Positions 851 through 49,989 of a DNA stretch of 64,000 nucleotides are shown one piece after another (the stretch's first letter is position 1; each line of letters starts with the position of its first letter). Made by a program: the position numbers and the translations under genes. Location: the NCBI GenBank assembly GCA_963971425.1, contig OZ020517.1:17078904-17142903 (forward strand), read 5' to 3'. The DNA is from Bryoerythrophyllum caledonicum. Its lineage: Eukaryota > Streptophyta > Bryopsida > Pottiales > Pottiaceae. Below the pieces are notes generated by a model, which saw only the letters and a list, made by a program, of their open reading frames with translations, was not told the DNA's origin and did no database searches.

Positions 851-985
851 GCACATTTAGCTCGACCCGAGCTAAATGTGCAGTGCATATATTCAACTTG
901 AGTCCAGCTGAATATGCAGTGCACATTCAGCTCGACCCGAGCTGAATGTGCACTGCATATTCAGCTCGGGTCGAGCTGAATGTGC
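851..985. repeat. Cluster of four ~33-bp palindromes (unit family P)
   Basis: Four adjacent palindromic units lie at 851-881, 884-918, 921-951 and 955-985. Each consists of an arm close to GCACATTCAGCTCG, about three bases, and the complementary arm. The unit at 851 has TTTAG in the left arm and CTAAA in the right, against TTCAG/CTGAA in the unit at 921, so both arms have changed together. They lie just upstream of the minus-strand gene, probably in its 5' intron. Confidence 0.9.
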
Positions 986-998
986 ACTCCTTCAAGCT

Positions 999-2065
999 AG
1001 AGTACTAAATCAAAACCTGAAACACTCATACCAACAAAAACTACGCATTTTGACAGTTGCAAGAACATATATGTCATACTGACGCACAAATAATTAAATG
1101 AAGCCCTAAACCTGTGTTACGGAGGCGATTGTGTTGACGCCGAAGTATCACCTCATTCCTACAACTTTTTCATTAGGCCAAAATCTATGCATGTCCTTTA
1201 AAGTTGACCTAGAATAATGTATCCACTTCTTCCTAGAGTACTGAATCAAAACCTGAAGCACTCATACGAAGAAAGACTACGCCTTTTGACAATTGCAAGA
1301 ACATATATGTCATACTGACGTACAAATAATAAAATGAATCCCAAAATCAGTACTAAGGAGGCGATTATGTTGACGCCGAAGTAACACCTCCTTCCTACAA
1401 CTATTTCATTACATTGAAAATGATAGTATCAAATGTGCAAATCAAATGCCAAGTAAATCACCATAAAGTTTAGACAGAAGTCTCTTACAAATGGTCCGAT
1501 TGCATGCACCAAAACGTCTTGAATGAAGAAGGAAGAGAAAACCCTACTCTTTCTCACGGCCGCAGCAACCATTCACGACCACACACCTCTGCATCTCTAG
1601 AAATCCCAAACACAACTAAGTTGACCTAGAATAATGTATCCACTTCTTGTTAGAGTACTGAATCAAAACTTGAAGCACTCATACCAACAAAATCTACGCA
1701 TTTTGACAGTTGCAAGAATTTATATGTCATACTGACGTACAAATAAAAAAATGAATCTCTAAACCAGTACTAAGGAGGTGATTGTGTTGACACCGAAGTA
1801 TCACCTCCTTCCTACAACTATTTCATTATATTGAAAATGATAGTATCAAATGTGCAAATCAAATGCCAAGTAAATCACCATAAAGTTTAGACAGAAATCA
1901 CTTACAAATGATCCGAATGCGTGCACCAAAACGTCTTGAATGAAGAAGGAAGAGAAAACCCTACTCTTTCTCACGGCCGCAGCAACCATTCACGACCACA
2001 CACCTCCGCATCTCTAGAAATTCCAAACACAACTAAGTTGACCTAGAATAATGTATCCACTTCTT
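999..2065. repeat. 417-bp tandem repeat, about 2.5 copies
   Basis: The landmark TTGACCTAGAATAATG starts at 1204, 1621 and 2038, giving a period of exactly 417 bp. A shorter first copy begins at 999 (landmark AGAGTACT at 999, 1235 and 1652) and lacks about 181 bp. Copies two and three differ at only a few percent of positions. No coding frame is conserved across the copies. Confidence 0.9.
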
Positions 2066-2166
2066 GCACAGAAATTTGACTTCGAATGCAACAGGTCTTT
2101 CAAATGTCAAGGCATACTTCGAGACAGTATAGATTCACGAAGGCTTACCATATTAGAAAGGTGCAA

Positions 2167-2215
<49 letters not shown>

Positions 2216-2985
2216 AGGTTGGGGTGTATTGACCACGTCGAACAAGTTGCCGTTCAGAAAAGAGCGGGAATGACATCACGTTTAGTGGGGAGGAGCTATT
2301 CTAAATAAAGCATCTTTCAAACTTGACCAAAAAATTAACAAGCACATAAGTTTCTCCTCATATCTCGATGTATTGGAAGTTTATGTTTACATGATCAGTT
2401 TAAGGTTATCGATTGGGGTTATGGGTATCAATTTAAATATGCAAGAATCAATTTAAATTTAAGGTATAGAATTATGTATCAATTTAAGGTTATCAATTGG
2501 GGTTATGGATATTTGATTACGGTCATTTATTTCCATATTAAGGATAATGATTATGACTAGATTATAAAAGTAAAGATTTAGGTTTAGGGTTGAAATTACA
2601 TTTTGACATTTAGGGTTTAGGATTTAAGGTTTAGGATTGCAAGTCCATGGTATGAAGTGTAAATTATAGGGTTTAGGGTTTTGGACTAGACAATTCTAGA
2701 ATTAGATTTATGGATTTGGGTTTAGGGTTTAGGTTTAAGGATTTAGTTATTAGGGTTTAAGGTCTTATAGTTTATTGTTTAGGTTTAATGATTTAAAGAT
2801 TAGGGTTCAGGGTTTTAGAGTTTTGTGTTTGGGATTTAGGATTAGGGTTTAGATTAGCATCGAGATTACCACTGCATCAAAATGTCCTTTCTATAAGATT
2901 GTTTATCGTATCAAAATTGAATTGTGCCTTGGTATTGATTTAAGAAAATTCATTACATATCACCTAAATATAAGATTTAAGAAGT
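2066..2985. other. AT-rich intergenic DNA with (GA)n and TTTAGGG-like stretches
   Basis: A pure GA dinucleotide run occupies about 2169-2211. From about 2570 to 2860 the sequence is a degenerate array of TTTAGGG and TTTAGG(A/T) words on the plus strand, resembling an old interstitial telomere-type tract. No gene is seen. Confidence 0.7.
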
Positions 2986-46877: not shown

Positions 46878-47825
46878 CCGGATTCTAATAATAGATTCCG
46901 GATCCTTCCGGATTCCGGACTTGTTACCCTAGTTTCCGGATCCTTCCGGATTCCGGATAACTTCTGACGGAGCCTCTTCCGGAGTTTTTAAGCTAGTGGC
47001 CGGGTGCCACTGATCCTATTTTGTGTAAGTGGCCGGATTCCCCACTGTCTTGTGACTTAAAGTGGCTAGACACCCACTGCCCCGAAACTTATAGTGGCTG
47101 GACACCCACTCTCCCTACTCCGCTAACCGGTGGTTGATTGCTGCTGCTAGACCCACACTCTCACAACATCCGGATGGCCATCCGGACGCGGTCACGCAAA
47201 GATAAGTCTAGACTACAACGACATTCTGGCAAGTGTTGTCGTGATTCTACCAAGTGAGTATTACGGTTTGCAACGAGGACTCCTTCTAGACATACACATC
47301 AGGTTTTTTCCTATCGTGGGGGTAAACTCCAGCCTCAACCGGAATCCGGGTTCACACGGATCTTCCGTGCCCTAGAGACTACCAAGAACACCTCTGCAAT
47401 ATATCTCTTCCCCTCCTGGCTTCTTCCGGACCCTGGAGACTACCAGGAACACCTCTGCATTACGTCTCCAGCTCTCCCGGGCGCTCTCCTAATGCAAGTC
47501 CCAACCGGTTACCTCAAGTTACAAACACAATAACGCTCACTATGACAAAACCTATCCACAACAACACAAACCGCAATGGATCCGTTCCTCACAAAAACGC
47601 TCAACACTAGGATATAGAGAAATATATTCAAAGGCTAAGATGTTTTCAGCTAGAGGAAACAAGACGATGGCCTCCCAAGACTCATCCTTCAAGTACTAAC
47701 TAAGTTCCTAACCTTAGCTCCATCTTATCCGCGAGGAATCCGGAAAATCTTATCCTAAAAGATCTTATCCCTGAAAATCTGGATTTCAAATCTCAGATCC
47801 GAAATTTATGGATCTGAGATCCGGA

Positions 47826-47866
<41 letters not shown>

Positions 47867-48890
47867 CTCCCGGCTTCCGGCTCCCGCCTTCTGGAATCCG
47901 GGAATCCGGAAATCCGGAAATCCCTTAATTCCGGAAATCCCTGAAATCCGGAAATTCCCTGAAATCCGGAAATTCCCTGAAATCCGGAAATTCCCTGAAA
48001 TCCGGAAATTCCCTGAAGTCCGGAAATCCCTTCCGCACTCACAGTTTTCTAGACTAAGGCCTTCCGGATGCAAACTTCCCTAAGTCTCCTTTGTTAGTAG
48101 CCGGGTGCAATCCTGAGCCCCATCGTTAATCGCTACTAATTCAAAAGGGACTAGGGATTTCCTAATACTACTCCTAACTATGGTGTCTTCTTATTCTTAC
48201 GCCTAGGTGATTCCTCTATCTTCTTCCCGGCGTCTGTCTTCTCCGGAGTCTCCTCCGACTACTGAGTTCCGGATCACGAAATTGCTGCTGGAGATTCTTC
48301 TGCTGGTGGTGTTGCTGCCGACCTCCCTGCCGACCAGATATGCTCTAAGAGTTGTCTTGAGGAACATACGGCTGCCAGATGAGGTCTGTTTCATGATGAC
48401 AGTTCCGGAATCCGGATCACCCCTGAAATAGTCCGGATTTCTCCGGACGTCTGCACTAATACTAAGTACTCTAATAGCACTATTTAAGGGATTCCGGTTG
48501 GACCATGATTCCTTATTTCTTATTTCTACCTATTTGCTTCCTACTATAATATTCTATTTACTAATTTTTTATTAAATTTGATATCTAGCCGGATTTTAAG
48601 GCTATATCCGGAATTATGTGGGAACGGATATCACACTTAGAGTACATGGAATTAACGCACGCGATTATGATATCTGATGGGCTCGCAAATTAGAAGTTCT
48701 GTGGTATCAATCATAAATGTGTTATACTATACATATCTTGTAAGTCAAGTGGCAGTTGCCAGTTCTTTGATATTTGTTTGTAATTTTTCGTTTGTTATTG
48801 TTGAATTTGATAGTTTTTGTTTTCTCTTTGCTTCCATGTTTGAAAAAGAGCCGTTAATCATTTTCTCACATAAACTATTGTATTGCCACC

Positions 48891-49933
48891 ATGGATTCTG
48901 TTTTGAAGTCAAAAGATTATGGATATCGAATTCCACGTAAACATAACGATTTGTACTCCCGCGGAGCAGCTGATTATTCGATGGACTCTTCGATGGCTCC
49001 AGTTGAAGAAGATGAAGTAAACAGCCCCCCACCTAAATTTTGCATTCAAAAGGTTGCCTCCCGTTCTATTCTTCAACCTCGTCAAACTTTGGTGTCCCCC
49101 GGTGTTGATAGGATTTGTGGGAAAGGTGACCAAGTGCTTGTTCGCGGACGTGAGGAATCATTGTCTCTTCCCCCGCGTAGCATGGTATTCCCCCCTCCCC
49201 TTCTCTGTATTTGTTCTAGGTCTTTTTTGGCAATGTGCACGTTCAGCTCGAATAGAGCTAAATATGCACAAGTTGCATTTTAACTCTCTTTGTCCCTACG
49301 TCATAGGATCACGTACTTCAAACACTTGCTGGTGTAATTCCACCACCTACGGCGGTGCCGTAAGAGGAAATGCCCACAATTTCTACAACATGTCGGCCTG
49401 TTACAACGGTCGGACATGATGAGAACAAGATTCATTCTCTAAGTGAGAAAACGCATTCTAATATTGAGGTTGGTCTTATTTTTTGTTATTGTTAAGTATG
49501 TGTTGTATCTTCTCCTCTTAATCATCACTGTTTTGAGTTTGCATGTTTCACGAACATCTAAATTGGACATGATTATTGAATGGATTCCACGTCATGGTGT
49601 TTGTGTTTTTTTGACATGTGTGGCTACATATTCAGCTTGGTTTTAGCTGATTTTTGTGGTCTCTTTTGCTAGGTGCTTCAACCGACTATAGAGCATCAAA
49701 GTGCTTCCCCAAAGCATGGTTTAAACCAAAACTCAAAGCGTCACTCTCGCCGTCGCCACTCGCTTCATGTGCCTATTGTTACTTGGAATCAACGTATGCA
49801 ACGCCAACGACAGCAAGAACATATACGTGCTAGTCAAATGCCATATACCGGTTACACCCGCAGAGATGAACTTCAAAGGGGTAGAGATGAGCAGAGGAAG
49901 TCTAATTCTGGTGACGTGGAGAAGAACAAGTAG
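48891..49933 (+). pseudogene. Three-exon gene of unknown function, one in-frame TAA
   Basis: The start ATG at 48,891 has an ideal context (GCCACCATGG). Exons 48,891-49,184, 49,307-49,468 and 49,673-49,933 join in phase 0 through GT-AG introns, giving about 239 codons. Exon 2 has a TAA at 49,361-49,363 with the same frame open on both sides. The protein begins with MDSVLKSKDYGYRIPRK, is Ser/Pro-rich in the middle and ends in a strongly basic region (SKRHSRRRHSLHVP, TRRDELQRGRDEQRK), suggesting a nuclear or nucleic-acid-binding protein. No known domain is seen. Both introns and the 3' flank carry family-P palindromes, linking it to gene A and the FCP1-like gene. Confidence 0.45.
49235..49267. 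repeat. Family-P palindrome in intron 1 of the 48.9-kb gene
   Basis: The left arm TGCACGTTCAGCTC and right arm GAGCTAAATATGCA are imperfectly complementary. It is inside the intron 49,185-49,306. A degenerate unit (ACATATTCAGCTTGG ... AGCTGA) lies at 49,626-49,650 in intron 2. Confidence 0.75.
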
Positions 49934-49956
49934 ATTTATGATCTGAGTGGTACAAA

Positions 49957-49989
49957 TGCACATTCAGCTTGGCTATACCAGAATGTGCA
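49957..49989. repeat. Family-P palindrome 23 bp past the stop of the 48.9-kb gene
   Basis: TGCACATTCAGCTTGG and ACCAGAATGTGCA form a hairpin with a partly mismatched centre, immediately downstream of the coding region (TAG at 49,931-49,933). Confidence 0.7.

Follow-up and report, generated by a model that had tools for sequence, protein, structure and literature searches.

A sequence-conserved palindrome in the introns, flanks and miniature derivatives of a moss transposon family: a putative site for the element's own predicted ParB-like protein

The stretch analysed here (the window, 64,000 nucleotides of the moss Bryoerythrophyllum caledonicum, contig OZ020517.1, positions 17,078,904 to 17,142,903) contains 25 units of a 33-bp palindrome (at most nine mismatches to TGCAYATTCAGCTCGNNNCGAGCTGAATRTGCA; core TYAGCTCGANTCGAGCTRA), all of which belong to one transposon that also carries a DUF7869 gene, a gene with three predicted introns, here called gene A, and a frame for an NLI-interacting-factor-like (NIF) phosphatase (Table 1). 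The count, from which register-shifted matches at 10,480 and 10,636 were excluded, agrees with the original prediction of about 24 short palindromes at these places, and the best match in six first-order Markov shuffles of the window had at least 11 mismatches. Sixteen of the units lie inside the introns of gene A (10,386–11,145, 12,572–12,815 and 14,175–14,375, predicted from GT..AG boundaries and homology), occupying all three, and none lies in its exons, where the best match, at 15,026, has 12 mismatches; this part of the prediction also held. Local tandem duplication is evident from the spacings between units (34, 45, 52 and 60 bp).

Five clusters of units were fetched from contig C1, and all five contained gene A sequence (copies A–E). 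The copies are collinear, with gaps, to three pieces of the window, and the copy coordinates of these pieces adjoin; copy D matches the window only from 10,657 on, and copy E has larger gaps. Because the pieces are collinear and adjoining in the copies, the units at 35.9 and 49.2–50.0 kb are part of the same element as gene A, and the intervals 15,193–35,377 and 37,192–48,636 are later insertions into the transposon. The one gene group to which the units had been assigned is one transposon split by two later insertions, and gene B, the SWIM transposase and a Gypsy element are free of units, as had been noted, because they lie in the later-inserted intervals. The first nested insertion is flanked on both sides by AGAC (15,190–15,193 and 35,377–35,380), a 4-bp target duplication.

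Table 1. Features of the transposon in the window (positions are those of the window; equivalents in copy C carry their own coordinates)
Feature	Position	Strand	Remarks
Transposon, left and middle part	1..15193	+	Collinear with copies A, B and C, mostly 85–97% DNA identity; left terminal inverted repeat outside the window, window start within the DUF7869 gene
Transposon, next part, after the insertion at 15,193	35377..37192	+	Carries the NIF-phosphatase frame; continues copies A and C; small gaps in B, D and E
Transposon, last part	48636..50303	+	Ends with the right terminal inverted repeat (...GAATATGGTGTT, 50,292–50,303)
Right terminal inverted repeat	50276..50303	-	
DUF7869 gene, 5' part	about 1–730	-	Candidate transposase (putative role); copy C about L016:4434–5165
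Gene A exon 1, ParB-like domain (predicted fold)	11146..12571	+	Fold match of homologue P0032; copy C ORF L017:6929–8584
Gene A exon 2, predicted MT-A70/beta-class methyltransferase-like fold	12816..14174	+	Open frame 12,654–14,228
Gene A exon 3	14376..15193	+	Truncated by the insertion at 15,193
NIF phosphatase frame	36217..37192	+	Up to the second insertion; PF03031, E 4.2e-16
Four palindrome units	850..986	.	Tandem array with a 34-bp period; distance to the DUF7869 reading frame about 120 bp; starts 850, 886, 920, 954
Ten palindrome units	10451..11072	.	Gene A intron 1; many at 52-bp spacing
Four palindrome units	12593..12760	.	Gene A intron 2; 45-bp spacing
Two palindrome units	14203..14295	.	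Gene A intron 3; 60-bp spacing; starts 14,203, 14,263
Palindrome unit	35941..35973	.	Downstream of exon 3 and ahead of the NIF frame; 15-bp arms, perfect; copy C equivalent L018:1514
Degenerate palindrome unit	36076..36108	.	Copy C equivalent L018:1647
Palindrome unit	49236..49268	.	Probably non-coding; copy C equivalent L018:3365
Degenerate palindrome unit	49625..49657	.	Predicted intron
Palindrome unit	49957..49989	.	Directly behind the last stop codon

The complete copy C measures 22.8 kb (G000:C1:15,569,639–15,592,434), holds 29 units at the same threshold and is bounded by perfect 28-bp terminal inverted repeats (TIRs; AACACCATATTCATTATATTGGGAGATT) with the termini AACACC. Its left boundary is identical to those of copies A and E, and 4-bp target-site duplications (TSDs) are found in copy C (ATTT) and copy A (ACAG). 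With at most two mismatches the TIR matches the genome at 1,118 places on the forward and 1,112 on the reverse strand, with none for the control, and a search with gene A exon 2 gave at least 95 matches of 44–100% identity, a lower bound on the copy number given that 94 of 1,575 candidates were scored. Of the 95 listed matches contig C1 holds 41, of which 36 contain stops compared with 21 of the 54 elsewhere (p 1e-6); the contig may be a non-recombining, possibly sex, chromosome.

On the left side of the element a minus-strand gene encodes a protein of about 950 amino acids with a DUF7869 domain (PF25273, E 4e-43 in copy C), the only candidate transposase from a scan of open reading frames (ORFs) of copy C. 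None of the eight copy C ORFs scanned gave a Mutator-type Pfam match, and no mention of DUF7869 was found in the literature searched. Gene A exon 1 is broken by two in-frame stops in the window and open in copy C, a homologue of the gene (P0107) is present in Physcomitrium patens, and the NIF frame of copy C (L018:1967–2812) matches PF03031 with E 6.6e-19.

The units also occur outside long copies of the transposon. Across the 437-Mb genome the arm pattern (at most two mismatches) gave 4,087 forward and 3,953 reverse matches, against 241 and 274 for the same pattern read backward, and symmetric CACATT units are found at 144 places (control 0). Such an excess, about 4,000 matches per strand, would suit a tiny hairpin that is mobile in its own right and inserts into introns, one of the identities originally proposed; however, the sampled isolated units sit inside TIR-bearing miniature inverted-repeat transposable elements (MITEs) and the others in clusters resembling those of long copies, which leaves the mobile hairpin with hardly any probability. 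Specifically, six of six isolated units lie in MITEs of 163 or 237–238 bp with both TIRs of the element, five of them with a 4-bp TSD as judged by eye. Among 20 further exact units, 11 are in 163-bp MITEs, ten of these with a perfect 4-bp TSD, and the remaining nine are in stretches of three to seven cores, taken as clusters of long copies. The places in both samples come from the top of the listing and all lie on contig C1, the second sample being drawn from about 50 listed with some close neighbours skipped; neither sample is random over the genome. In the reverse direction, 20 TIR sites chosen blind to units (from the first 100 listed, skipping sites already seen, and likewise not random) yielded 13 MITEs, every one of which has the core (at most two mismatches) and a TSD. 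At the other seven sites the second TIR is absent within 480 bp, and four of these (L074, L075, L076 and L083, which resemble right ends) also lack the core there, even at up to four mismatches. A regulatory site of host genes was considered as well and was not borne out, the sampled isolated units lying in MITEs.

That two size classes of MITE retain the TIRs and at least one unit and nothing coding is what would be expected if the units were binding sites of the element's transposase, serving synapsis or regulation of the transposase gene in the manner of subterminal repeats of DNA transposons. The arrangement around the candidate transposase points in the same direction, as the 34-bp array, which counts four units in the window and five in copy C, lies about 120 bp before the DUF7869 frame, and additional units lie behind the frame near the left TIR. 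The 16 intronic units of the window argue otherwise, since in copy C the units of the gene A introns are at least 14.5 kb from the left end and at least 4.3 kb from the right, as do the four TIR-anchored stretches devoid of a core, although in copy C a degenerate unit does lie some 310 bp inside the right end; moreover, the DUF7869 protein is a candidate transposase with no relative in the PDB by sequence. On balance, we consider binding by the transposase rather unlikely as the explanation of the units.

The conservation of the units was examined in ten copies picked for divergence from the 95 listed exon-2 matches, representing three subfamilies at 49–55% and 44–45% identity. In all ten copies the 300 bp that follow exon 2 contain the core AGCTCGANTCGAGCT (at most two mismatches) two to four times, and in nine the 300 bp that precede it contain the core two to three times (L031 has none there), while the 13.4 kb of exon 2 in these copies contain none, six matches appearing only at three to four mismatches. 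The introns of four subfamilies (the window copy included; 44–55% protein identity) share eight 10-mers, every one of them inside the core, whereas exon 2 has no 10-mer common to the four. For three subfamilies the introns have 12 common 10-mers, four inside the core and most of the other eight overlapping its edge, and exon 2 has ten; shuffled introns gave zero to three 10-mers common to at least three subfamilies in 20 runs. A TIR end is present in three of four downstream stretches (subfamilies S44 and S55), the fourth, L042, having none.

The same arrangement appears in contigs of another organism. One scan of genome contigs found two, L043 (CADCWO010000243) and L044 (CADCWO010000269), binned in a 'Synechococcales' metagenome-assembled genome, with 57% and 55% identity to exon 2 and, in L043, NIF in equal order; they are probably contaminating moss-like DNA in a cyanobacterial bin. 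P0035, labelled 'uncultured Leptolyngbya', is a similar case. None of the seven cores in L043 and the eight in L044 (at most one mismatch) falls within the exon matches; shuffles gave 0.03 on average. The core can also be recognised in predicted proteins that read through the splice junction, as its three frames translate to QLxSS-stop, SSxRA and ARxEL: tails spelling the core are found in 31 of 126 homologues, compared with 0 of 126 for the reversed core and none in the protein bodies minus the last 70 residues. Twenty-seven exon-2 homologues extend 12 or more residues beyond the junction, whose position is approximate; 15 of them match the core exactly, and the 12 misses include six near matches by eye and P0107, which is annotated as spliced.

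As far as these sequence comparisons reach, they show the core kept in the same introns at 44–57% protein identity, including contigs of another organism, such that intron DNA of a mobile element is conserved better, word for word, than a coding exon. This pattern suggests a cis code that is specific in sequence and common to long copies and MITEs. Alternatively, the units might be neutral tandem duplications in which hairpins are repaired or converted on their own template, a process at the DNA level that would keep the arms symmetrical with no selection. The regular spacings fit this idea, as does the observation that the arms within a unit are more alike than swapped partners; yet neutral intron DNA would not supply every 10-mer common to four subfamilies while exon 2 supplies none, and the core in the same introns of another organism would be unexpected, so that we regard a neutral origin as very improbable.

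A cis code could be read in duplex DNA or in RNA, and the pairing of the arms bears on both. The arms had been said to change together, and among 91 distinct main-family units three of five measures lie above shuffles: 88.0% of cells pair versus 86.9% (0/500 shuffles as high), both-side changes affect 43 cells versus 20 (0/500), and the covariation score is 0.121 versus 0.106 (3/500). Pairs changed on both sides (6 versus 4.7; 124/500) and further pair types (19 versus 18.5; 253/500) are not above shuffles, and 29 of the 43 both-side changes fall in one column, the C/T–G/A position, making the effect weaker than claimed. The CATATT/CACATT column covaries among distinct units (30, 13, 15, 29; p 0.001). 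Relative to the consensus, with the C/T–G/A column excluded, 92 distinct units show 13 compensatory doubles, 18 non-compensatory doubles and 179 single changes, and in some units the differences between subfamilies in the outer arms take the form of self-complementary pairs. The 62 units taken from other lineages combine variable outer arms with a nearly fixed core, which 29 match exactly and the others within the two mismatches allowed when they were chosen. In the sense strand of these lineages there is no significant excess of G-U over A-C mismatches (72 versus 61, p 0.39); for the main family the numbers are 62 versus 49 on the gene A side (p 0.25) and 17 versus 26 on the DUF7869 side. Of the 62 units, 59 have a complementary A and T on the two sides of the centre, as would be expected for a duplex dyad.

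RNA hairpins acting in introns, in splicing, processing of double-stranded RNA or nuclear retention, would account for units in all three predicted introns of gene A, for the small surplus of pairing and for the complementary outer-arm differences between subfamilies. They would not account for a core that is nearly fixed instead of covarying, for units beside the DUF7869 frame and behind the last stop codon or for gene-less MITEs that retain the unit, and an Rfam scan returned no family reaching the gathering score. An RNA signal, also among the original proposals, thus appears improbable. Because the core is nearly fixed, the MITEs are gene-less and the G-U excess is not significant, a duplex DNA site read by a dimer is favoured over an RNA hairpin.

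A candidate reader is encoded by the gene that harbours most of the units. Folds were predicted with AlphaFold2 on alignments and compared with Foldseek. For the exon 1 model (homologue P0032, mean pLDDT 68.5) the top seven matches are ParB, Noc and ParB-N proteins (probability 0.98–1.00, best E 6e-3), with KorB at rank 9, and for the exon 2 model (mean pLDDT 77) the list is led by METTL3/14, M1.HpyAVI and MTA1/9, the MT-A70/N6A methyltransferase matches reaching a probability of 0.95–0.99 for the first five and a best E of 8e-3. Both assignments are predicted folds, and the kinship with ParB is drawn from the fold: profile scans gave no ParB match, Pfam and NCBIfam scans of gene A gave nothing above cut-off, and below it were N6_N4_Mtase in P0003 (E 0.029) and HTH_Tnp_Mu_2 in P0005 (E 0.078). 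A search of the PDB by sequence returned only two arginine methyltransferases for query A1 (E 0.61 and 0.74) and nothing for query A2, and viral contigs contained neither the exact palindrome nor a relative of P0001 or A1. DPPW/DPPY is the catalytic motif of MT-A70/beta-class methyltransferases. At the place where it would be expected gene A has IDxRxxP (mostly IDFRxxP), with D274, R276 and P279 invariant in 23 sequences, which suggests a changed or dead active site. A ParB-like protein had been postulated for the element from the outset, and the predicted ParB-like fold agrees with it; for this reason a putative site for the element's own ParB-like protein is the best supported of the three readings originally offered, and the original interpretation as a whole is partly supported.

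Taken together, we tentatively propose, at a confidence a little short of even, that the units are built-in sites of a 22.8-kb TIR transposon and its MITEs, likely bound as double-stranded DNA by the gene A product and marking the family as self, possibly with an anti-silencing effect. A dimer of the gene A product would recognise the core, load there and spread in the manner of ParB, the methyltransferase-like domain may be no longer catalytic, and binding would label the copies of the family as self, with a possible protection from silencing by the host. The outcome could be anti-silencing or a coordinated regulation of the element's genes, as with the VANC proteins of Arabidopsis VANDAL elements. 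The more specific proposition of a eukaryotic ParB–parS system, in which a plant transposon took up a prokaryotic-type ParB-methyltransferase with parS-like palindromes in introns, flanks and MITEs, and the protein loads, spreads and blocks silencing, we consider somewhat unlikely. If a ParB-like protein does read the core, a clamp-and-spread mechanism of bacterial chromosome segregation would be at work in eukaryotic chromatin, and a moss amenable to experiment would allow tests of how transposons escape silencing.

Several observations weigh against binding by the gene A product. The fold matches have E values above 1e-3 and low TM-scores (query/target 0.17/0.39 for the first ParB match and 0.22/0.39 for the first methyltransferase match). 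In canonical ParB a helix-turn-helix (HTH) recognises parS, and no DNA-binding domain above cut-off was found in gene A, the sole hint being the HTH_Tnp_Mu_2 match in P0005. Only 98 of 138 main-family units have complementary bases flanking the centre. The outer arms of a unit pair better with each other than with swapped partners (5.90 versus 4.28 of 10; maximum 4.85 in 1,000 swaps, with the relatedness of units uncontrolled), and a reader of half-sites alone leaves this within-unit pairing partly unexplained. Retention of the unit in MITEs may reflect a few founder MITEs (163 and 237–238 bp) and not 13 independent cases, and the DUF7869 protein could equally be the reader of the core.

Some features of the locus stand apart from the units. 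In the window copy, exon-like pieces at 8,800–10,150, which we take to resemble the land-plant ANGUSTIFOLIA/CtBP gene, lie inside the transposon; copies A and C have no match for about 9,001–9,824, and the stretch may be a captured fragment of a host gene. Beside the 34-bp array, overlapping self-similar matches at 990–2067 suggest a tandem repeat with a unit of a few hundred bases. Just beyond copy C an ORF (L018:4484–4933) with YDGNHRYEVW and a weak DUF1015 match (E 0.0067, below cut-off) is perhaps a ParB-like gene of a neighbouring element.

TIR DNA transposons are known for TIRs, short TSDs and MITEs with the same ends, and the present element resembles them in its 28-bp TIRs, short TSD and equal-ended MITEs. 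It differs from the recognised ones in combining a 4-bp TSD and AACACC termini with a DUF7869 gene and no recognised transposase. Mutator-like elements produce long TSDs; unlike VANDAL elements, the transposon described here has a 4-bp TSD, no recognised Mutator-type transposase and a candidate reader that is ParB/MT-A70-like. No description of a ParB-bearing plant transposon or of such a palindrome was found in a search that reached part of the matching literature, nor was a description of the cis code of this plant transposon family.

Like ParB–parS systems, the element unites a predicted ParB-like fold, in gene A, with inverted-repeat sites; it differs in being a eukaryotic transposon with 25 sites in the window copy and 29 in copy C and no HTH above cut-off. 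An anti-silencing role has a precedent within the ParB family in VirB, which is described as an anti-silencer (PMC10653881). Fusions of a ParB-CTPase fold to methyltransferases, N6_N4 in phages and MT-A70 in archaea, are described (PMC12704722), and gene A resembles them in predicted folds, with a ParB-like and an N6A/N4C methyltransferase-like domain in one gene. The main text of that source makes no mention of plants, mosses or transposons, and gene A differs from the fusions in belonging to a plant-type transposon, in its introns and associated palindromes and in the apparent replacement of the DPPW-type motif.

The closest parallel in layout is the Arabidopsis element VANDAL21, whose VANC21 protein is reported to bind a short motif in introns and upstream regions of its own element and to remove silent marks (PMC5735166; PMC10398659). 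The motifs form tandem repeats there, located in introns of the genes VANC21 and VANB21 and, in the case of VANA21, upstream of the gene (PMC5735166). The VANC21 motif differs in form, being the 9-base YAGTATTAY in one orientation (PMC5735166) rather than a symmetric 19-bp dyad, and VANC target regions are described as diverging rapidly, whereas here the core is stable across deep divergence and the outer arms vary. Pfam scans gave no match named as a VANC homologue, a direct comparison with VANC sequences not having been made, and the element is not classed as VANDAL because its TSD and the stability of its motif depart from that group. The two families nevertheless agree in having a family-specific short motif that is dense in their own non-coding parts and tandemly duplicated, placed in introns and upstream of the transposase gene in VANDAL21 (PMC5735166) and in the gene A introns and the DUF7869 flank here. 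If the eukaryotic ParB–parS system were true, the moss family would have evolved, independently of VANDAL, a second anti-silencing machine of the VANC kind, whose recognition code is better conserved than the coding sequence.

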